35,534 nucleotides of DNA. It comes from a virus. Numbering within the stretch: position 1 is the first letter of the stretch; each line of letters opens with the position of its first letter. The translations under genes and the position numbers were made by a program. The stretch covers positions 1 to 35,534 of IMG/VR virus record IMGVR_UViG_3300036806_000406; one strand, written 5' to 3'. This document shows, piece after piece, positions 11,454-24,869 of the stretch. The notes under the pieces were generated by a model. It was not told the DNA's origin. It saw only the letters and a list, made by a program, of their open reading frames with translations, and made no database searches.

Positions 11454-11881
11454 CACACTTCTTCTAGCTCCATCTGCCACTGCACGGCGGCACCATATTC
11501 ATCGCGGCTCACGGAAAAACCGGTCACCCGCATCTGGAGCGCAGGCCGATAGAACACGAAGGCGCCTTCGGTGCGCGCGGAGCCCAAGACAACCGGACGC
11601 GCGGGGGATCCGCCGGACGGGTAGCTCAACTCGGTCACGCAATCGACCGTGACGACATGGCCCGGCCAGACACCGTCGATCGCGGGCGGCTCCTGGTCCT
11701 GGCAAGAAACGGTCGATTTGTATTTGCGGAACTGAGCGTAGGACAAATCCTTGAGCGCGCCGTTGACGGTCCGGCGCAGGCTGCTTGACGCCTCGATCGG
11801 TTCCAGCGTCTGTGTCAGGCCTCGTGCTGAGTAGTCGGGGACGCCGATGCCGGAGAGCACGAGCAGCGTGTCATCGCTCAT
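11453..11881 (-). CDS. Phage minor tail protein, unknown function
   Basis: This 142-residue protein begins MSDDTLLVLSGIGVPDYSARGLTQTLEPIE and then has a conserved-looking core (LRRTVNGALKDLS, KYKSTVSCQDQEPP, WPGHVVTVDCVTELSYP). Its ATG overlaps the tape measure stop (ATGA), and its stop overlaps the next start by one base. It is the kind of small protein that follows the tape measure gene in related prophages, perhaps a tail-tip component. No function is established. Confidence 0.72.
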   Translation of the reverse strand: MSDDTLLVLSGIGVPDYSARGLTQTLEPIEASSSLRRTVNGALKDLSYAQFRKYKSTVSCQDQEPPAIDGVWPGHVVTVDCVTELSYPSGGSPARPVVLGSARTEGAFVFYRPALQMRVTGFSVSRDEYGAAVQWQMELEEV

Positions 11882-14643
11882 CGTCCCTTCCCGTAGTAGC
11901 TGGGCTTTCGTCCGGCGCTGCGGATTTGCCGCGTGACCGCGACCCGCAACAGTTTCTGCGCCACATCTTCGGGCGCCAACATCCCAGCGAACATCTCCGA
12001 TCCGATCGTCAGATTGATCGGCCGCAGCGAGGCGGTCGATGCCGGTTGAGGCACCAGGCCGCCATCAGCGAGCCGCAACGGCGGCGGCATCAGTACCTGC
12101 AACGAGCGCACCAGGCCGCCCTCGGCGAAGCGCGCGAAGGCGTCCGGATTGATGCGTAAGTGGTTCAGCGCGCTGAATAAGGAGAGGCCGTATTTCCGGA
12201 CTGCCGCAGCGCGGATCACGAACTCTCCGTTCGACAGCCAGGCCGGGATCGAGTCCGAAGTGCCGGTGCCGGGACCGTGGATCGGACCACCGCGGGCAAA
12301 CCCAGCGGCACCGGCGCCGGCTGCGTCGTTCTGGGCGGAAGCGGCCTCCCGGGCCGCACCCGTGATCGCATTCCAGACGCTTAGCGCGAAGTCGCGAAGC
12401 CGGCCGAGAAAGCCCGTCACCGCGTTCAGGCCCGACGAGAACGCGCTCGTAATCGTGTCCCACATCGATTGCGCGCCGGAGACGATGCCGCTCCAAGCGC
12501 CCTTCGCCAAGCCAGCGAGGGCTTCGAACACGGCTTGCGCCGCGGTCACGATGACCTGCCAACCAGACGCAAGGAAATCGAAGCCAGCCTGGAACAGGCC
12601 ATTGAGCTGGCCCCAAAGCTCGGTCGCACCGGAGAGGATCAAATTCCAGAATGCGCTCATGCTCTGAATGCCGGATTGCCAAAGCGAGACGAGCCCCGCC
12701 CACAATGCGCCCGCGCCGGACGCAATTGTTTCCCAAGCCCCCTGCGCTGCGCTCACGATGGTGCCCCACAGACCAGAAACGGCTTCGATGCCCGCTGTAA
12801 ACAGGCCCGAGATTGTCTGCCACAGACCAGCAAAAAATCTGCCGATGGCGTTCACGGCGCTCGCCGCGCCTAACGCCAGCTTTTGCCAATCGATACCCTG
12901 CGCGAGCCGCACCACGAGGAAGCCGAGTGCGACGCCGACCGCGGCAATCAGCAGCGGCAGCCCGCCAAGCGCAGCGGCAAGCGCGACGGCGCCGCGCGCC
13001 ACGAGCCCCACGACGCCGCCGAGCGCGCCGAACGCGGTGAGTACGATGTTGAGCGGTCCGCCGAGCGCGGCGAACACGCGCAATACGATGCTCCAAGCAC
13101 CCTGGAAAACCGACAGCACCCCGATCAGCTTGAGAAAACCGCCAACGAGCTTGGTGACCACCAGCGTCACGGCGATGTCGGCGGGCGTGATCTTGGTGCC
13201 GAACACCGCATTGATGGCATTGGCGGTCTCCTGCATCAGGCCGGCGAAGATTTTGAGCGCCGGCACCATCACGTTGGTGACCACGGTCGAGACTGCCGAA
13301 CCGAGCTCGAGGAATTGTGCCTTCGCGGTCACGATCCAGCCGGTCTGGATGTCCTGATCCTGCCCGCTGAGCGCGCGCGCCAGGTCGAGGATCACCGGGC
13401 GAGTCTTGACCGCGATGTCGGCCGCAAACGTGATGACGGCGGCGCGATTGTCCGCGATGGCCTTGCGAAACAGGTTGGCGGCTTCGGTGAACTGCGGCGC
13501 GAACAGGAGACCAACCGAATCCTTGAGCCGGGTGATACTGAACTGCAGCTGTCCCACCGCACGCTGCATCTCGACACCCACTCCGATCTGCTTCGGCGTC
13601 AGGATCAAGCCTTGGCTGTGTAGCTCCTTTCCAATCCGCTCGATTCCCGCGCTGCCCTTCGCCAGCAGCGGCACGAGCTGCGGGCCGACACGCCGGCCGA
13701 ACAGCTCCACTGCGCGCGCCGCCCGGTCGGCGGGATCCGGTATGGCGGCAATCTGGTCGGCCACATCCTTGAAGACGTCGATCGGGTCGCGCGCTTTTCC
13801 ACCAGCCTCCGTGATGGCGATGCCGTAGCGCTGGAACGCGCCGCCGGCGTCCGCCACTTTGTCCCGGAGTTCCTGGAAATGCTGTTTCATCTCCTGCGCG
13901 CTGTGCGATCCGGAAGAGAAGAATCTGGTATTGACTTTTTGCGTATCGATTAGCGCGCGCTGCACCTCGCCGCTGTGCTGCTCGATGACGGCAAATGCTC
14001 GTCCAAGCTGCTCCTGGTCGGTGCCGAGCTTGCCGGCGGCGGCTGCGAATTCCTGGTAGGCCGTCGTCGAGGTGCCCGCCGCAAGTGCGTTGTTGCGGAT
14101 CTCGCTCGCCGTGCTCGCCGCTGACTTCGCCAACGCAAACAGCACAGCCGGCAATGCCCCAAGTACGGCCGTGGTCTTGAGCACCTCGGCGGCCGCATTC
14201 TTGAAGCCACCGACGATCGAGGCGACGCCGAAATTCAGGTTGGTGAATTGGGCGGCGCCGGACGCAACGACCGAACCGATGCTCCGTAGCGCGGTGCCGG
14301 TTGCGATAACGGCTCCAGCCAGCGCGGCGCCGGCACGCTGCGCGCCCGACATTGCGGCCGCCGCGCCGCCGACCTGGCCACCTAACGTTTGCGCGGCCGA
14401 GCTTGCCGCGCCAAACGCGGTGCTGGCATTGGCAACACGCCCCCGCATGTTGTCGATGGCGGCACCGGTGTTCCTGGCGGCCGTCTCGACCGCGCCGAGT
14501 GGGCGGTCGAGCTTGATTCTCTCGCCTGCCTGCTGGATCTGCTGGAACGCCTCCTGGCCGGCTTTGCCTATCTGCGCCAGCGCCTGCTTGATCTGATCGG
14601 CGCCCTCAAGCGCGATCCGCTGGGTGATGGTCGGGCCGGCCAT
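11878..14643 (-). CDS. Tail tape measure protein
   Basis: This 921-residue protein is the longest phage gene product. It starts with MAGPTITQRIALEGADQIKQAL and a long Ala/Gln-rich helical region, followed by a TMP-like segment with many hydrophobic stretches (about 440-600, such as VLTAFGALGGVVGLVARG). Short repeats of W-type sequence follow (about 600-780; GLWGTIVSAAQGAWETIASG, GIQSMSAFWNLILSG, FDFLASGWQVIVTAAQ). A C-terminal GPIHGPGTGTSDSIPAWLSN matches tape-measure ends. It sets tail length and probably forms a channel at DNA entry. The ATG lies immediately after the stop of the upstream gene. Confidence 0.93.
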   Translation of the reverse strand: MAGPTITQRIALEGADQIKQALAQIGKAGQEAFQQIQQAGERIKLDRPLGAVETAARNTGAAIDNMRGRVANASTAFGAASSAAQTLGGQVGGAAAAMSGAQRAGAALAGAVIATGTALRSIGSVVASGAAQFTNLNFGVASIVGGFKNAAAEVLKTTAVLGALPAVLFALAKSAASTASEIRNNALAAGTSTTAYQEFAAAAGKLGTDQEQLGRAFAVIEQHSGEVQRALIDTQKVNTRFFSSGSHSAQEMKQHFQELRDKVADAGGAFQRYGIAITEAGGKARDPIDVFKDVADQIAAIPDPADRAARAVELFGRRVGPQLVPLLAKGSAGIERIGKELHSQGLILTPKQIGVGVEMQRAVGQLQFSITRLKDSVGLLFAPQFTEAANLFRKAIADNRAAVITFAADIAVKTRPVILDLARALSGQDQDIQTGWIVTAKAQFLELGSAVSTVVTNVMVPALKIFAGLMQETANAINAVFGTKITPADIAVTLVVTKLVGGFLKLIGVLSVFQGAWSIVLRVFAALGGPLNIVLTAFGALGGVVGLVARGAVALAAALGGLPLLIAAVGVALGFLVVRLAQGIDWQKLALGAASAVNAIGRFFAGLWQTISGLFTAGIEAVSGLWGTIVSAAQGAWETIASGAGALWAGLVSLWQSGIQSMSAFWNLILSGATELWGQLNGLFQAGFDFLASGWQVIVTAAQAVFEALAGLAKGAWSGIVSGAQSMWDTITSAFSSGLNAVTGFLGRLRDFALSVWNAITGAAREAASAQNDAAGAGAAGFARGGPIHGPGTGTSDSIPAWLSNGEFVIRAAAVRKYGLSLFSALNHLRINPDAFARFAEGGLVRSLQVLMPPPLRLADGGLVPQPASTASLRPINLTIGSEMFAGMLAPEDVAQKLLRVAVTRQIRSAGRKPSYYGKGR

Positions 14644-15246
14644 TCAATCTGCTTTCAGGTGCTTGGCATAAAGAGACGGCAACTGCGCCGCCGCCTTCTG
14701 AGCTGCGCCCTTGATGTCGAAGCGCTTGGCGATCGCGACGGTCGAAAGCCCGACATAGAGCGGCTTGCGCTCGGCGTCGACGGCTGCCCGACGACCGCGC
14801 CGCCCGGCGCGCGGCTTTGGGAACAGGAGTGGTGGTCTACCGGGTCGTTCGATCGTGACGAGCGGCCCAACCGTGCGCGCATATTGCGATGGCGTCATCG
14901 GGCGACCGCGTCGTAGAGGTACCGTGGGCAGCGGCAGCCACAGGAGTGGTTTGCCGCCAATGACCGCGCCTTCCTCGAACACGCCCGCGTAGCGAATCTT
15001 GTGAAAGATGAACGCGGCCGGGCGCATACTGTCACCCTGCGGCGGGTAGATGTTGACGCGCAGCGCGTTCTGCCATTTGCGCGAGAACCCAGCCGCCGCA
15101 ATGCTGGCGCGACCGTTGCGCTTAGCGATCTCGCCCGCTTCGCGAACCGCTGCAGTCGCGGCTTTCGCAATCGGACGCTGCAACTCCTTCACGATCGTGT
15201 CGACGAAGCTCTTGGCGACGTCCGAGAGCGCGAAGCGCAGCCCCAT
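14644..15246 (-). CDS. DUF6441-type phage tail protein
   Basis: This 200-residue protein starts MGLRFALSDVAKSFVDTI and continues with a helical region, then FSRKWQNALRVNIYPPQG, AFIFHKIRYAGVFEEGAVI and GGKPLLWLPLP. This pattern is what I recall as the DUF6441 family of phage proteins, found beside tape-measure genes; assignment is from memory and not tested. The C-terminal part is rich in Arg. It may act in tail assembly or tail completion. Its stop is directly followed by the tape measure start. Confidence 0.72.
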   Translation of the reverse strand: MGLRFALSDVAKSFVDTIVKELQRPIAKAATAAVREAGEIAKRNGRASIAAAGFSRKWQNALRVNIYPPQGDSMRPAAFIFHKIRYAGVFEEGAVIGGKPLLWLPLPTVPLRRGRPMTPSQYARTVGPLVTIERPGRPPLLFPKPRAGRRGRRAAVDAERKPLYVGLSTVAIAKRFDIKGAAQKAAAQLPSLYAKHLKAD

Positions 15247-15251
15247 TTTCG

Positions 15252-15530
15252 CTAGTCACGCTGCAATTGATCGAGCTGGCGCTTAATCTCGCGCGGTTCG
15301 CCGCGGGCCGCGAGTGCGCCAAGGGCCAGTTGCTCCGCCGCTTCTCGTTGCTTGCGACGCCGCGCGAAGTAGAGCGAACCCACGATCTGACGCGGCGTCA
15401 TCGCCCACACGTCAACGGGCGGATAGTTCGCGCCGATCAGCGCGTCGACGGCTTCCGCAATTTCGAAGCCGGCGCCGTATCGGATGGAGCGGCGTCGAGG
15501 ACGCCGCCAAGCGCCGTCAGCTTCTGCACG
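15252..15530 (-). CDS. Tail assembly chaperone second part, probably made by -1 frameshift
   Basis: From 15530 to the TAG at 15252-15254 the frame is open for 92 codons. It contains YGAGFEIAEAVDALIGANYP, then VWAMTPRQIVGSLYFARRRK and ALGALAARGEPREIKRQL. This resembles the second, short part of phage tail chaperones (the T part of gpG-GT). There is no ATG, GTG or TTG before the conserved start of this part; the first ATG (15401) has no ribosome site. A perfect slippery heptamer CCCTTTC lies in the right frame in the gene upstream (15530-15536). A -1 shift would make a fused protein of about 202 residues. Confidence 0.7.
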   Translation of the reverse strand, partial: RAEADGAWRRPRRRSIRYGAGFEIAEAVDALIGANYPPVDVWAMTPRQIVGSLYFARRRKQREAAEQLALGALAARGEPREIKRQLDQLQRD

Positions 15531-15859
15531 AAAGGGCCAACACCCTGCGGCAGCGTCAGCCGTAGGATCGCGGCAAGGAGATCAGCCTGCGCGTCCAACG
15601 AGAGCTTGCCGGCTACAGCCTCAGCCTGTTCGTCGGCGGGATAACCGCAGCCGGCAGCGATAATTGCGGCGACTGCGTCGCCACCGATCGCCATCAATTG
15701 CTCGGTCTCGACTTCCTGTCCGGTCATCAGCTTGCGCAGCTCGGGAAAGCGGCACAGCAGATGCGCCACACCCTTTGCGGAGACGCCGTGCACAGCGACG
15801 GATGTGCCCCGTACATCGACGGTTTCGACGTTGGGCGCGATATCGATAAGGCCAACCAT
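15437..15859 (-). CDS. Phage pre-tape-measure / tail assembly chaperone protein
   Basis: The ATG at 15859 with AGAAGGA upstream gives 140 residues; 33 codons of open frame before it lack a good start. The sequence (MVGLIDIAPNVETVDVRGTS, then FPELRKLMTGQEVETEQL) matches what is usually annotated as a pre-tape-measure protein, and is helical in the second half. It is expected to bind and protect the tape measure while the tail forms. Codons 109-110 carry the slippery CCC TTT C, and the last 30 codons overlap the -1 frame product. The last residues (SDTAPASKLRKPSTR) look like out-of-family tail, as in other frameshift pairs. Confidence 0.8.
   Translation of the reverse strand: MVGLIDIAPNVETVDVRGTSVAVHGVSAKGVAHLLCRFPELRKLMTGQEVETEQLMAIGGDAVAAIIAAGCGYPADEQAEAVAGKLSLDAQADLLAAILRLTLPQGVGPFVQKLTALGGVLDAAPSDTAPASKLRKPSTR
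15530..15536 (-). promoter_or_regulatory. Slippery heptamer for -1 frameshift (CCCTTTC)
   Basis: On the minus strand C CCT TTC fits X XXY YYZ in the frame of the upstream gene (codons 109 and 110). A -1 slip leads into the 92-codon open frame that ends at 15252. I did not find a clear stimulatory hairpin by eye, although GC-rich inverted stretches follow. Confidence 0.6.
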
Positions 15860-16044
15860 GACAGTCCTTCTTATAAGTGACGCGGAGGGGCAGTCGCGCC
15901 TATCGAGGTTGCCCCGCCCTGAATTTGTGTCCGCTTTCGAGCTAAGGCGGCATCGCACTGCAACACAACGCTACCTCATTAGTAGCGATTTGGCCCAGAC
16001 CGGTCCTCGCGGTAGCGGACAATTTGCGGTGCAAAAAAGCTTGA

Positions 16045-16265
16045 ATGCTTACTCACCACCTCGTCGGCGTCCGAGGATGCGGCCAGCGTACATGCCCGCA
16101 TCATGATATGAACCCCTCAAACTGTTCATAGCTCATCAAGCCGCCAGCCGCGACAAACTCTCAATACTGTGTAGATTGCGGGCACCGCATACCGCGCAGC
16201 CAACTCGCCGAGCAACGCGCGCCGAGCAATGAAAAGCCCATCATTGGCAATCACGAGCCCGCCGG
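16045..16265 (-). pseudogene. Remnant of an ABC transporter substrate-binding protein gene
   Basis: Reading left from about 16263, one frame encodes GGLVIANDGLFIARRALLGE followed by LAARYAVPAIY, another AGGLMSY, and a third AGMYAGRILG. These are consecutive pieces of the C-terminal region of TRAP/ABC-type substrate-binding proteins of the ABC_sub_bind family, common in Bradyrhizobium. The frame is broken at least twice and both ends are missing, so no functional protein is expected. The fragment lies in the bacterial-type block between phage tail and capsid genes. Exact limits are uncertain. Confidence 0.6.
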
Positions 16266-16285
16266 AATACGCTCGGCTCGCCTCG

Positions 16286-16810
16286 CTAGGGCAGCATCCG
16301 CTGCATTACGCCATCGCGATAATAGAACAGATGTGCAAATGCCGCCGCGACGTGGAGTCCGGCCACGACCAACAAGGCCCACATGAAGTTCTGGTGCCAG
16401 CCGTCCAGCAATCTCACCAGCGCACGGTTGCCGGAGGTCAGCATGGGCAACGGCGCGACGAAGAACCACGACACGTTCCAGCCGCGAGCGGAAGCGAACA
16501 GCCAACCGCTCAACGTGGTCAGCAGCACAAGCAAATAGAGCAGCCAATGCACACCCTCGGACGTGATCCGCTGCCATGAAGGAAGCGAGCTTTCCGGAGC
16601 AACCGGATGCGTCACGCGCCACAAGAATCGCGTGACGATCAGCGCAAGAATGACTGTGCCGATCGAGATGTGCCAGGTCATGGGTACGCCAGGGGGGCCG
16701 CCGTGCACGTCCGGCATCAGCCAGCCGAGCGAGTATTGGACGAGGAGAAGTGCGACGACAGTCCAGTGCAGAGCCTTGGCCGTCGTTCCGTAATGCAGGC
16801 GTTTCATCAT
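16286..16810 (-). CDS. Cytochrome b561 family protein
   Basis: This 174-residue protein has four predicted membrane helices and conserved histidines in each expected place: ALHW (about 15), TWHISIG (about 45), EGVHWLL and WHQNFMW/LHVAAAFAHLF. These would bind two b-type hemes, so it should move electrons in the inner membrane. It is slightly shorter than most family members. The start could be either of two consecutive ATG; the ribosome site is weak. It is divergent from the gene at 16939 and is a bacterial-type gene in the phage block between capsid and tail. A broken copy lies at 2640-2953. Confidence 0.93.
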   Translation of the reverse strand: MMKRLHYGTTAKALHWTVVALLLVQYSLGWLMPDVHGGPPGVPMTWHISIGTVILALIVTRFLWRVTHPVAPESSLPSWQRITSEGVHWLLYLLVLLTTLSGWLFASARGWNVSWFFVAPLPMLTSGNRALVRLLDGWHQNFMWALLVVAGLHVAAAFAHLFYYRDGVMQRMLP

Positions 16811-16938
16811 CCGATTCGATTGCCTAAAGGTGAACTGCCGTCGTGATAATGGACCCGATGTCGCCGGGTTCCGGAACTCTTTGTCTCAGGTAGACTTCCA
16901 CTCGATGACGGCTTCCTTTTTAAGGGAGGGCACAGGAA

Positions 16939-17664
16939 ATGGCAGACGTCAAATACAGACTGGCGAACCCCAATCTTCGTCCAAGACGGACAAAACTCGA
17001 GATGCCCGGATGGGGTGGCAAGCCAGAGCCCCGCGCCGATGGTTCGCAGGAATATGCATGGCACTGTGCTCCGTTCACCGAGGGGGCGCAGTACGGCATT
17101 GAGATTTTTTACCCGTATCAGAATGAACTCCATGTCAGCAGGAAGGACGGCCTCCCGGTGCTAGACGGAGATTTTGGACCTCCGCCCGATGATGACCGTC
17201 AGTGGCCTCCATTCCGCAGTTTCGGAACGGATTTCTACACTTACCAATTGCTGCTTGATCTCAAAGTTGGAAAAGATTGGGCGGTGCGCACCGAGCCCCA
17301 TCCGCGGTTTTATACCGACCCCACCGACAGCGTACCCATCGCGGTCCCGGCGCTACTGCGGACTGAGTGGTGGCCAATGATCTCTTTTATCGTATTCAAA
17401 ACCCCGGCCGAGGGCCGCACCCATATCTTCCGGCCGGGCGAGCCGATGCTGCAAATCTTGGTGCTGCCGGTGACGGCGGACTTCAACCTCGTCGAGATGA
17501 CCGAGGAAGAGGCGGCGGAGCGTGAGATGAGGGGACGGCGAATTCATGCGAGCCGCGAAACGCTCGCAGCAGATTCCACGTGGACTTCCAGCACCCGCAC
17601 CGTCTTCGACGGCACATATCGCCACATGCTTCGGGCGGCCAAGGCGAAAGCGAGGGAAGAGTAA
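16939..17664 (+). CDS. DUF6065-like protein
   Basis: This 241-residue soluble protein starts at an ATG with AGGGAGG and AGGAA upstream. Its N-terminus is KYRLANPNLRPRRTKLEMP; strong blocks follow: YPYQNELHVSRKDGLPVLDG, FYTYQLLLDLKVGKDW, RTEPHPRFYTDPTD and THIFRPGEPMLQI. The end is helical and charged (TEEEAAEREMRG, then FDGTYRHMLRAAKAK). I recall this pattern as DUF6065, a cupin-like family of unknown function; I cannot confirm it here. It is on the opposite strand from the phage genes and looks like a bacterial gene of its own. Confidence 0.82.
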   Translation: MADVKYRLANPNLRPRRTKLEMPGWGGKPEPRADGSQEYAWHCAPFTEGAQYGIEIFYPYQNELHVSRKDGLPVLDGDFGPPPDDDRQWPPFRSFGTDFYTYQLLLDLKVGKDWAVRTEPHPRFYTDPTDSVPIAVPALLRTEWWPMISFIVFKTPAEGRTHIFRPGEPMLQILVLPVTADFNLVEMTEEEAAEREMRGRRIHASRETLAADSTWTSSTRTVFDGTYRHMLRAAKAKAREE

Positions 17665-17690
17665 ACGCCCCGCTTGCGCCCGATCTTGCC

Positions 17691-18080
17691 TCAATAGCGA
17701 TTATACGGGCCGCGGTAGTAGCTGTTATGGTGGTGGTGGTGATGGTGGTCGTAGTACGGCCGTGGAATGAACTGCCGGATTATAGGCGGCAAATATTGGC
17801 TGTGATGGTGGTGATAATACTGGCTGTGATGGTGGTGGTAATATTGGCTGTGATGGTGGTGGTAATACTGGGCAAGTTGGGCCTTACCCGAAACTGCCGT
17901 TTCGGCGCGCCGCGCATCGTCAGCCTTTAGCAGTTCCAAGGCGCCTGGAACTGGGTCGAGAAGATCCCTGTAACTCGTGACCGCGGTGGGCGCGGACGAC
18001 TGTGCCGGAGTGGCTTGCGCACCATTCATTGTCGTCAGGGCTGCTGCGGCTCCCAACAAACCAGCAATCTTCTTGTCCAT
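17691..18080 (-). CDS. Secreted His-rich protein
   Basis: The ATG at 18080, with AGGAGG five bases upstream, gives 129 residues; an earlier start lacks a site. A short signal peptide (MDKKIAGLLGAAAALTTMNG, cleavage after about AQA) leads to a segment with SYRDLLDPVPGALELL. The C-terminal half is a repeat of YYHHHHSQ (three perfect or near-perfect copies), then a run of seven His and a Tyr/Arg-rich end. His clusters like these usually bind nickel, zinc, copper or cobalt, so a periplasmic metal-storage or metal-shuttle role is possible. No enzyme motif is seen. Confidence 0.75.
   Translation of the reverse strand: MDKKIAGLLGAAAALTTMNGAQATPAQSSAPTAVTSYRDLLDPVPGALELLKADDARRAETAVSGKAQLAQYYHHHHSQYYHHHHSQYYHHHHSQYLPPIIRQFIPRPYYDHHHHHHHNSYYRGPYNRY
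17797..17868. repeat. Three tandem 24-bp units encoding YYHHHHSQ
   Basis: Units at 17797-17820, 17821-17844 and 17845-17868 differ at only one or two positions. They keep the reading frame of the His-rich protein, so copy number can change without breaking the gene. Confidence 0.85.
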
Positions 18081-18139
18081 ATAGCCTCCTGATCGTTTCC
18101 CCCGCACCATGGGGACCAACAATAAGTCAATATCAAGTC

Positions 18140-18193
18140 GCAATCAGATAGCCTCGATCGTGGGCTGCAATCAGAAAGCCTCGATCGTGGGCT
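18140..18193. repeat. 27-bp tandem duplication
   Basis: Copies at 18140-18166 and 18167-18193 differ at a single base. They contain the palindromic core CGATCG and lie in the 274-base gap between the His-rich gene and the capsid gene. I see no gene in that gap. A regulatory role is possible but not shown. Confidence 0.8.
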
Positions 18194-18354
18194 CAGGATT
18201 CGCCGGCCAGTCGCGGCGCCGGTGTGTAACCTTGTACAGACGCCGCGTGGCACCAGGTGCAATTGCGAATAGCACTCAAGCACCGCAAGACCCGACCGGC
18301 TCATCGGCTTGCCTGGATTTTGACCGCGCTCTTCACCCCAATTCGCCAATTCGT

Positions 18355-22999: not shown

Positions 23000-23962
23000 G
23001 TGCGTGGCCGATTCATAATTTCCGCCTTCAACTCCCTGAGTGCGGTTATGCTCGCCCTCGCCATTGTTGTAGTTTTTGTGTTTGTTGTGGTTTTTCGTTC
23101 ACTGGCTCGCCGAGCGGTGATTTGCATCATTGAGGTCGCACCCAGCGTACCTCCAAGAGTGGTCGGTTCTCGGGCATGGGCGCTTTCAGAGGCTCTCAGA
23201 TCCCGACTGGCAAAACGCTATCCTAGGCTCTTCGGGATTGTGACGAGACGACTCGACTCCCATAAACCGTCGGGGCTTCTGCTGACGTTGGTCGTTCTCG
23301 CCGCTATCTACGTCGCCGCATTATTCAGCGGCCTTACCGAGGACATTCTTGAAGCACAAGGAACAATCCGAATTGACAACATCGTCAACGCGGCGTTTGG
23401 CCCGTGGCGCGTCGAGCCGCTAATCTCTGCGTTTCTTTGGATCACAGCCTTGGGAAGCAGTCCCGCAGTTGTTGCCGCAGTGATTATCGCAACCGGCTTT
23501 CTCTGGTCGCAACGCCGCTTCTATTCCATCATTCCTCTTTGGATCACTTGTACGGGTGCGCTCGCTACCACAACGATCGGCAAGTTCGTCATTGGCCGGC
23601 ATCGTCCAGAGTTCACGATCGATGTGACCGTGAATTCTTCGTCGTTTCCGAGTGGACACGCGACGGCCGCGATGGCCGTATACGGATTCATTGCATACGC
23701 CATTGCGCGCGCATTGCCGGGCGTTCGTGAACGTTTCGAAGTTACTTATTGGACGATTGTACTCGTTCTCCTGGTTGGCTTCAGCCGCATTTTCTTGGGG
23801 GTCCATTATGTAACGGATGTCGCCGGCGGTTTCCTCGTTGGAGGATTCTGGCTACTGGTCGGATTGATCATTGTCGAATGGAATGCAGCAGACGCGATTG
23901 CGAGTTCCCACCGGGGTGACAATCCTTCGTCTTTATCATCGTCTCAGGACGACAGTCGGTGA
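23000..23962 (+). CDS. PAP2 family membrane phosphatase
   Basis: This 320-residue protein has an N-terminal membrane helix, a soluble Arg-rich linker (about 45-92), then five or six membrane helices with all three PAP2 signatures: KFVIGRHRP (K-x6-RP), PSGH and SRIFLGVHYVTD (SR-x5-H-x3-D). It probably removes phosphate from a lipid such as undecaprenyl diphosphate or phosphatidate on the periplasmic side. The linker and the LLLTLVVLAAIYVAALFSG start of the domain look like the part that follows DedA in DedA-PAP2 fusion proteins; DedA lies at 1010. It is on the opposite strand from the phage genes and next to a lipid kinase gene. Confidence 0.9.
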   Translation: MRGRFIISAFNSLSAVMLALAIVVVFVFVVVFRSLARRAVICIIEVAPSVPPRVVGSRAWALSEALRSRLAKRYPRLFGIVTRRLDSHKPSGLLLTLVVLAAIYVAALFSGLTEDILEAQGTIRIDNIVNAAFGPWRVEPLISAFLWITALGSSPAVVAAVIIATGFLWSQRRFYSIIPLWITCTGALATTTIGKFVIGRHRPEFTIDVTVNSSSFPSGHATAAMAVYGFIAYAIARALPGVRERFEVTYWTIVLVLLVGFSRIFLGVHYVTDVAGGFLVGGFWLLVGLIIVEWNAADAIASSHRGDNPSSLSSSQDDSR

Positions 23963-23981
23963 CGATGCAAAAGGCCTTCCA

Positions 23982-24869
23982 TTGCGAACGCGATTTCTAA
24001 TCATCCACAACCCTAATGCCGGCCCATCGGCACGGCACCTCTATCATGCAACGCTATCGGGGCTTCAGAGACTTGGCTGCAACATTGAGATTATCGAGAC
24101 ATCTCAGCACGGCGAGGGCATGAAGGTTGCAGGGGACGCCGCGCAACGGGGGTGCTTCGATGCAGTTGTGGCAGCAGGAGGCGACGGCACTTTGCACGAT
24201 GCCGCGGAAGGACTGATTGGCAGCTCGACGCCGCTCGGCATCATTCCGATGGGAACGGGAAACGTTTTTGCACAAGAGATGAAGCTTCCTCGGTCGCCAG
24301 ACGAGCTGGTGAACGCCCTGCAGTGTGGCGAGGCACGCGAAGTTCCGGTTGGGCAGGTGAATGGTCGACCCTTTCTCTTTGTTGTGGGAGTGGGTTTCGA
24401 CGCTGCTGCCGTTCGCTTCTTTGAGCAAGAAAGTACTCGCAGTTTAGGTCAGGCCGGATTTGTCTGGCCGGTCCTACGCGCGCTTGTTTCCTACCGCGAC
24501 CCGATACTGCACGTGACGTCGCCTCGAGGTGACGCCGAGGTACCATGGGTCATCGTGACAAGAGTGAAGCGCTATGCCGGAAATCTGATGCTGGCTCCTG
24601 AAGCTGACCCACAGCACGCCCAATTCTACGTTCTGCGCATGAGTGGAAGCGGCCCATTGAACCGGATCCGGCAGCTTTCAGCCCTTGCTATCGGTTATCT
24701 TCGCTATGATCCGGACGTTTCCGTTGAATGCGTGGATTGGGTTAAGATTGATGGTGATCAATCAATCCCGGTCCAAGTTGACGGCGAGGTGCTTGGCAAC
24801 CTGCCGTTGGAGATCTGTATTCACCCGAAACGACTCAGGCTCATTTGGCCGAGTGGATCATCGACTTAA
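23982..24869 (+). CDS. Diacylglycerol/lipid kinase (YegS-type)
   Basis: The protein shows the lipid-kinase motifs FLIIHNPNAG, AAGGDGTLHDAAEGL and LGIIPMGTGNVFAQE, and a C-terminal beta domain ending in QVDGEVLGNLPLEI. It transfers phosphate from ATP to a diacylglycerol-like lipid. From the TTG at 23982 (AAAAGG site upstream, 20 bases after the PAP2 stop) it is 295 residues, the normal length. ATG codons at 23871 and 23883 would give longer proteins that overlap PAP2. Together with PAP2 it forms a small lipid-phosphate operon: one enzyme adds and the other removes phosphate. Confidence 0.88.
   Translation: MRTRFLIIHNPNAGPSARHLYHATLSGLQRLGCNIEIIETSQHGEGMKVAGDAAQRGCFDAVVAAGGDGTLHDAAEGLIGSSTPLGIIPMGTGNVFAQEMKLPRSPDELVNALQCGEAREVPVGQVNGRPFLFVVGVGFDAAAVRFFEQESTRSLGQAGFVWPVLRALVSYRDPILHVTSPRGDAEVPWVIVTRVKRYAGNLMLAPEADPQHAQFYVLRMSGSGPLNRIRQLSALAIGYLRYDPDVSVECVDWVKIDGDQSIPVQVDGEVLGNLPLEICIHPKRLRLIWPSGSST

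Follow-up and report, generated by a model that had tools for sequence, protein, structure and literature searches.

The question raised by this locus is whether the gene ahead of the tape measure gene of a prophage is read in two ways from one start, such that a -1 shift of the ribosome near its end would yield a second, longer tail-assembly protein. Slippage in a tail-assembly gene is a well known kind of event, and the unusual part is the slip site; Xu, Hendrix and Duda reportedly described the G/GT tail chaperone frameshift of phage lambda in 2004, together with counterparts in long-tailed phages. We addressed the question in a virus record of 35,534 bases, IMGVR_UViG_3300036806_000406 (the whole of this stretch is referred to as the window), and among relatives of the locus. 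Overall, we assign a probability of roughly 0.93, judged on sequence evidence, to a programmed -1 frameshift of the lambda G/GT kind, through which one start would give two tail-assembly chaperones, G and G-T.

The G gene and the T frame in the window

Gene G (15437..15859, minus strand; 140 amino acids), which represents the zero frame, is identified as a pre-tape-measure tail assembly chaperone by a match above the curated cut-off to the PF23789 Pre_tape_measure profile (57.6 bits as compared to a cut-off of 27); an AAGGA at 15869-15865 lies upstream of its ATG and its stop codon is located at 15439-15437. The slippery heptamer C_CCT_TTC (15530..15536, minus strand) is placed in the phase X_XXY_YYZ, with CCT and TTC as zero-frame codons 109 and 110, and CCCTTTC occurs only once within 15859-15230. 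As the window shows no enrichment of the CCCTTT hexamer (6 found vs. 10.8 expected), this single occurrence alone means little. The -1 frame becomes open 45 nt ahead of the heptamer, downstream of a -1 stop at 15584-15582, and the T part (15252..15536, minus strand) is open for 94 codons from the CCC, 92 of them after the heptamer, up to a TAG stop at 15254-15252. Gene G, the codon positions of the heptamer and the 92-codon frame ending at 15252 were found as the first-pass annotation had placed them, and the block of T that it had described as conserved-looking is indeed conserved. The first half of this block, GAGFEIAEAVDALI, covers T residues 21-34 (15435..15476, minus strand) and was defined by alignments of 23 and 34 T sequences, and the second half, VWAMTPRQIVGSLYFARRRK, covers T residues 43-62 (15351..15410, minus strand), with a Thr-Pro that is invariant in the 23 aligned sequences. 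The predicted -1 product matched phrog_13355 (E = 1.2e-5), a family of 58 amino acids whose match covers only the later part of T and which matches 12 of the 23 T sequences scanned; a search of the same product against Pfam found no family at E = 5.

The tape measure gene is located downstream of G and T with one gene in between, i.e., a DUF6441 tail gene (14644..15246, minus strand; PF20039, 60.4 bits). The probable tape measure protein itself (11878..14643, minus strand; 921 amino acids) was assigned by position and length, along with a weak PF10145 match of 25.1 bits, below the cut-off of 33.2. As in lambda G/GT, the mechanism of which is summarized in PMC5009743, a short gene stands ahead of the tape measure gene, a slip heptamer is found near the end of this first gene, and an overlapping second part is placed at -1 without a start of its own. 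Unlike in lambda G/GT, the slip site is CCCTTTC and one gene separates T from the tape measure gene; the order with DUF6441 in this place corresponds to that reported for KL1 and HK97 (PMC3483164) rather than exactly to that of lambda. The lambda G/GT layout claimed by the first-pass annotation holds for the overlapping -1 frames and is less exact for the gene order. This likeness is one of layout; the window sequences tie to PF23789.

Under the proposed mechanism, most ribosomes would read G to its stop and make protein G, and a minority would slip back by one base on C_CCT_TTC, where, upon re-pairing, the Pro tRNA would exchange CCU for CCC and the Phe tRNA would exchange UUC for UUU. These ribosomes would then read on in the T frame to give a G-T fusion of about 202 amino acids. 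We infer that such slippage occurs, and likewise its rate; by analogy with lambda, G may bind the tape measure protein and T may bind the major tail protein.

The prophage in the window may be defective, as it has no recognisable major tail gene and carries a cytochrome b561 gene and other non-phage genes upstream of G. It is conceivable, although we rather doubt it, that the slip site in the window is a relic, i.e., that the prophage no longer has a major tail protein gene and builds no tails; this would be compatible with the frameshift itself. In four relatives (L012, L010, L080 and L015) a major tail protein gene directly precedes G (phrog_807, with E-values of at most 1.5e-25), and a comparison of the four encoded proteins against the window found no match (best E = 0.52). 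The region between the major capsid gene and G (15860-18354), in which the cytochrome b561 gene (16810-16286) is accompanied by a His-rich ORF (18143-17691) and a plus-strand ORF (16939-17664), also has a lower GC content (0.583 vs. 0.646 downstream) and could represent an insertion, a replacement or a joined assembly. In addition, genes for a PAP2 phosphatase and a YegS-like lipid kinase are located on the plus strand (23000-24869) between the minus-strand terminase and portal genes. On the other hand, G, T, the DUF6441 gene and the tape measure gene are all open, five pairs that include the window gave dN/dS ratios of 0.07 to 0.14 for the T-only codons (i.e., those after the G stop), and the search may have overlooked a diverged tail gene located elsewhere. 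The possible defect of the prophage leaves the identity of the slip site unchanged.

Conservation of CCCTTTN among relatives

A protein scan of viral contigs yielded 4 loci, and an alignment of four G proteins yielded 52. A second scan used a nine-row T alignment and confirmed 91 loci, 80 of which were kept; every row of this alignment carries CCCTTTN, which represents a possible bias, while the search patterns lie well downstream and exclude the site. A scan of bacterial genomes yielded 5 loci, found in a Hyphomicrobiales MAG, Hyphomonas, Aurantimonas, Mesorhizobium and one further bacterial record; we take the named ones to be Alphaproteobacteria. The counted set comprised 112 loci with complete G stop and overlap, including 53 from the G scans and genomes (window included) and 59 from the T scan. 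Left out were L005, L027, L045, L054 and L055 (cut off inside G), 20 second copies of contigs already in the set, L056 (heptamer present, with an unread stretch within the region), L061-L064 (copies of L056-L059), L065 and L067-L072 (without a T of the window's family, seen or searched for), and L089 (heptamer present). In L089 (2240-2500), CCCTTTC and T are intact and the G frame is interrupted ahead of them, as a sequencing error or a decayed gene would produce. Among three other members scanned with PF23789, L043 and L047 passed and L003, which belongs to a Pro-Leu branch, showed no match. Among genomes sampled at the level of the class, 3 of 385 had PF23789 above the cut-off, and at the level of the phylum 1 of 398 did, with the centre genome counted in both samples; tblastn searches of G (window, L018 and L023) and T (window) against 50,697 annotated phage records gave no match.

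The first-pass annotation had proposed to compare relatives for conservation of the heptamer and the overlap. In-phase CCCTTTN was present within the G/T overlap in 98 of the 112 overlap-keeping loci, with C (82 loci), G (8), A (5) or T (3) as the seventh base. After single-linkage clustering, 54 of the 65 clusters formed at 80% identity contained CCCTTTN, and 31 of 40 clusters at 60% identity had at least one CCCTTTN member. Chance as the source of this conservation was ruled out by synonymous resampling of the G codons of the 65 representatives, using their pooled codon usage (400 rounds); CCCTTTN was present in 4.2 representatives on average and in no more than 9, as compared to 54 observed, and the corresponding numbers for any in-phase X_XXY_YYZ were a mean of 24.3 and a maximum of 37, as compared to 61 observed.

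The homologous Pro codon was CCT in 55 of the 58 clusters having it (a count that omits L033, L043 and L102, for which the listed Pro codon is elsewhere), as compared to 50 of 582 other Pro codons in these genes, and 54 of these 55 clusters were the motif-bearing ones. The first six bases of the heptamer are invariant by definition of the class; the seventh base varies and the A-site residue is exchanged between Phe and Leu, which argues that the constraint acts on the bases and not on the residues. Double coding was considered as an independent reason for CCCTTT and set aside, because ribosomes would be in the T frame at the motif only after a shift at or before it; a -1 stop abuts the CCC in L021, L022 and L024 (one cluster) and in L148 (another).

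The T frame and the probable place of the frame switch

The T-only codons showed dN/dS ratios of 0.04 to 0.29 in 14 of 15 pairs, and the fifteenth pair was saturated; these ratios indicate that the T frame is under purifying selection. Up to its first ATG, the T frame of the window contains only a GTG (15410) and an ATG (15401) among ATG, GTG and TTG codons, and neither is preceded by a Shine-Dalgarno match of at least 4 nt. Two further statements of the first-pass annotation, i.e., that no usual start precedes the first half of the block and that the first ATG has no ribosome site, were borne out by these data. As 4 of the 65 representatives do not have the W..TP landmark, 61 were usable for a count of starts; no ATG, GTG or TTG was found at least 20 codons before the landmark in 53 of these, and such a codon was present in 8. 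The first-pass annotation had held that relatives in which the second frame has its own start and ribosome site would speak against a frameshift; such a T appears possible in 2 of the 61 representatives (L023 and L046), which have a pre-block start with a Shine-Dalgarno match of 4 nt, as compared to 50 of 65 for the starts of G.

That T represents a separate small protein, made from an internal start or by re-initiation after the G stop, with CCCTTTN being incidental, seems very unlikely. The starts in these 8 representatives could be read in this way, in particular those of L023 and its kin, in which an ATG directly precedes the T block, and the small size and late placement of phrog_13355 would be expected if some annotators start T internally. 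A separate T is contradicted, however, by the 53 representatives without such a start and by the scarcity of Shine-Dalgarno matches; moreover, the G stop, which follows the heptamer by a median of 97 nt, falls inside the first half of the conserved block in the window, where re-initiation would lose part of this block. A separate T would also leave the conservation of the heptamer unexplained.

To locate the frame switch, we took it to occur at a homologous place in all members, i.e., after the last -1 stop and before the first zero-frame stop of any member. The -1 stops that abut the CCC represent two lineages, and the nearest zero-frame stops are located 52 nt (L029) and 55 nt (L100 and L103) after the first base of the heptamer; the abutting -1 stops and the zero-frame stop at 52 nt thus pin the switch to the heptamer. 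No other in-phase X_XXY_YYZ was present in the overlap for 44 of the 54 CCCTTTN clusters.

Loss of the heptamer with the overlap kept, the other finding that the first-pass annotation had regarded as contrary to a frameshift, was observed in 14 of the 112 loci. Six of the 14 carry a different canonical heptamer, either at the site or no more than 15 nt away, and the remaining eight carry none there. L016, L018, L058 and L091 use CCC as the Pro codon (GGC CCC TTC), which would spoil A-site re-pairing, and have C_CCA_AAN 15 nt upstream; the slip site has apparently moved to this CCCAAAN. In L033, C_CCA_AAG precedes the site by 6 nt, and in L043, T_TTT_TTC is found at or adjoining the site; CCCTTTN and CCCAAAN were found together in no locus. 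G_CCT_TTT occupies the site in L127 and L128, only tetramers such as T_TTT or T_TTC are found there in L036, L047 and L066, and L102, L108 and L123 have a G_GGG_GAG run common to all three and no CCCTTTN. Other in-phase heptamers (TTTCCCA, TTTCCCG and GGGGGGC) are located further upstream in L036, L102 and L108. In L102, L108 and L123, a T of the usual kind follows a different G half, which starts with MTDIR or MSDIR. The eight loci without a canonical heptamer count against one site for all members, and not against the site of the window.

A real frame switch by another step, i.e., transcript slippage or a shift at another place in the overlap, would accommodate these eight loci with their occasional bare tetramers, as well as the -2 shift reported for phage 9g (PMC4276943), but is hardly credible, as the base runs in CCCTTTC are only three long, the heptamer has no in-phase competitor in most CCCTTTN clusters and -1 stops abut it in two lineages. 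The programmed -1 frameshift in the tail chaperone gene pair, which the first-pass annotation had termed probable, is strongly supported by the comparison across relatives. Beyond the window, these data suggest that a large, mostly undescribed phage lineage has probably fixed C_CCU_UUN, with any third A-site base and with at least one switch to a C_CCA_AAN located 15 nt upstream in members that lost the first site, and that its hosts are alphaproteobacterial where a named cellular relative tells.

Known slip sites and possible stimulators

Slip sites in published phage examples include AAAAAAG, GGGAAAC and AAAAAAC, the last of these predicted for phiCbK of Caulobacter (PMC3556154). Burkholderia phage AH2 encodes a "pre-tape measure frameshift protein" (gp56/gp55) with a predicted -1 shift at AAAAAAG (PMC3483164); it resembles the window in that its G half belongs to PF23789 (E = 2e-35) and in the direction of the predicted shift, and differs in its slip site and in a T half without a match to the T profile. 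L065, which shares its G family with AH2, has an in-phase GGGAAAC, and the translated frames of L065 and AH2 showed no match to the T profile. For the tail chaperone of Enterobacteria phage 9g the slip motif is reported as CCCUUUUUUU (PMC4276943), which is a point of likeness to the window; unlike in the window, the shift is reported as -2, and the 9g proteins match Phage_TAC_18 and, weakly, Phage_TAC_4 instead of PF23789. Within the literature covered, which was incomplete for subscription papers (including the site table of Xu 2004) and otherwise consisted of excerpts, no CCCTTTN site was found for a -1 shift in a phage chaperone gene, and 9g was the nearest case.

Outside phages, the -1 frameshift site C_CCU_UUU of West Nile virus (PMC11507841) belongs to the same heptamer class and has the same direction, but this is a eukaryotic RNA virus and the gene is unrelated. 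In E. coli, C_CC.U_UU.A, G and U gave more than 0.10% frameshifting without a stimulator, and C_CC.U_UU.C is named for high-level -1 frameshifting (Sharma et al. 2014; PMC4066793). These reporters have the heptamer and phase of the window and were assayed in bacteria; unlike the window, they are synthetic constructs, with stimulators from IS911 or IS3 or no stimulator, and do not contain this gene. The judgement of the first-pass annotation that the heptamer is not typical stands when it is compared to the published phage sites considered here; it does not carry over to E. coli or to the lineage itself, in which CCCTTTN, although unusual as a slip site, is standard.

If this reading is true, the lineage would offer a naturally occurring C_CCU_UUN slip site in bacteria that is strongly conserved, lineage-wide and all pyrimidine in its main form, along with natural knock-outs and replacements. 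It would also explain how the second half of the chaperone is expressed across a broad phage group, in which gene finders would miss or mis-start T. The natural variants at the third A-site base and the relocated CCCAAAN could be used to test which tRNA re-pairings matter.

An AGGG (15543..15546, minus strand) located 6 nt before the heptamer is a possible Shine-Dalgarno-like stimulator and may aid slippage; such stimulators were looked for 6-17 nt upstream in PMC4066793. Among 54 representatives, anti-Shine-Dalgarno pairing of a 9-nt stretch whose first base is 13 nt upstream of the heptamer had a mean of -5.39 kcal/mol; the value was -1.76 for the rest of G, and 100 synonymous resamplings gave -4.50, with a minimum of -5.04. 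The protein sequence accounts for most of this pairing peak, and a modest excess remains. Downstream of the heptamer, an RNA stem-loop was predicted (15465..15524, minus strand; z = -2.78) in the window, and is not claimed as a stimulator. Conserved downstream structure was not found among the 54 representatives, with a mean z of -0.96 for a 50-nt segment starting 8 nt after the first base of the heptamer and of 0.0 to -0.84 at other offsets. Among 15 close relatives no stem pair showed changes on both sides, and Rfam gave no match over 15200-15900 up to E = 1. Comparisons of the structure models of G and T to the PDB, and of T to viral models, found no match at E = 0.001 or better, and profile searches against PDB sequences found nothing below E = 0.16. 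The models themselves had pLDDT values of 82.9 for G and 79.8 for T, and T is predicted to form four helices.
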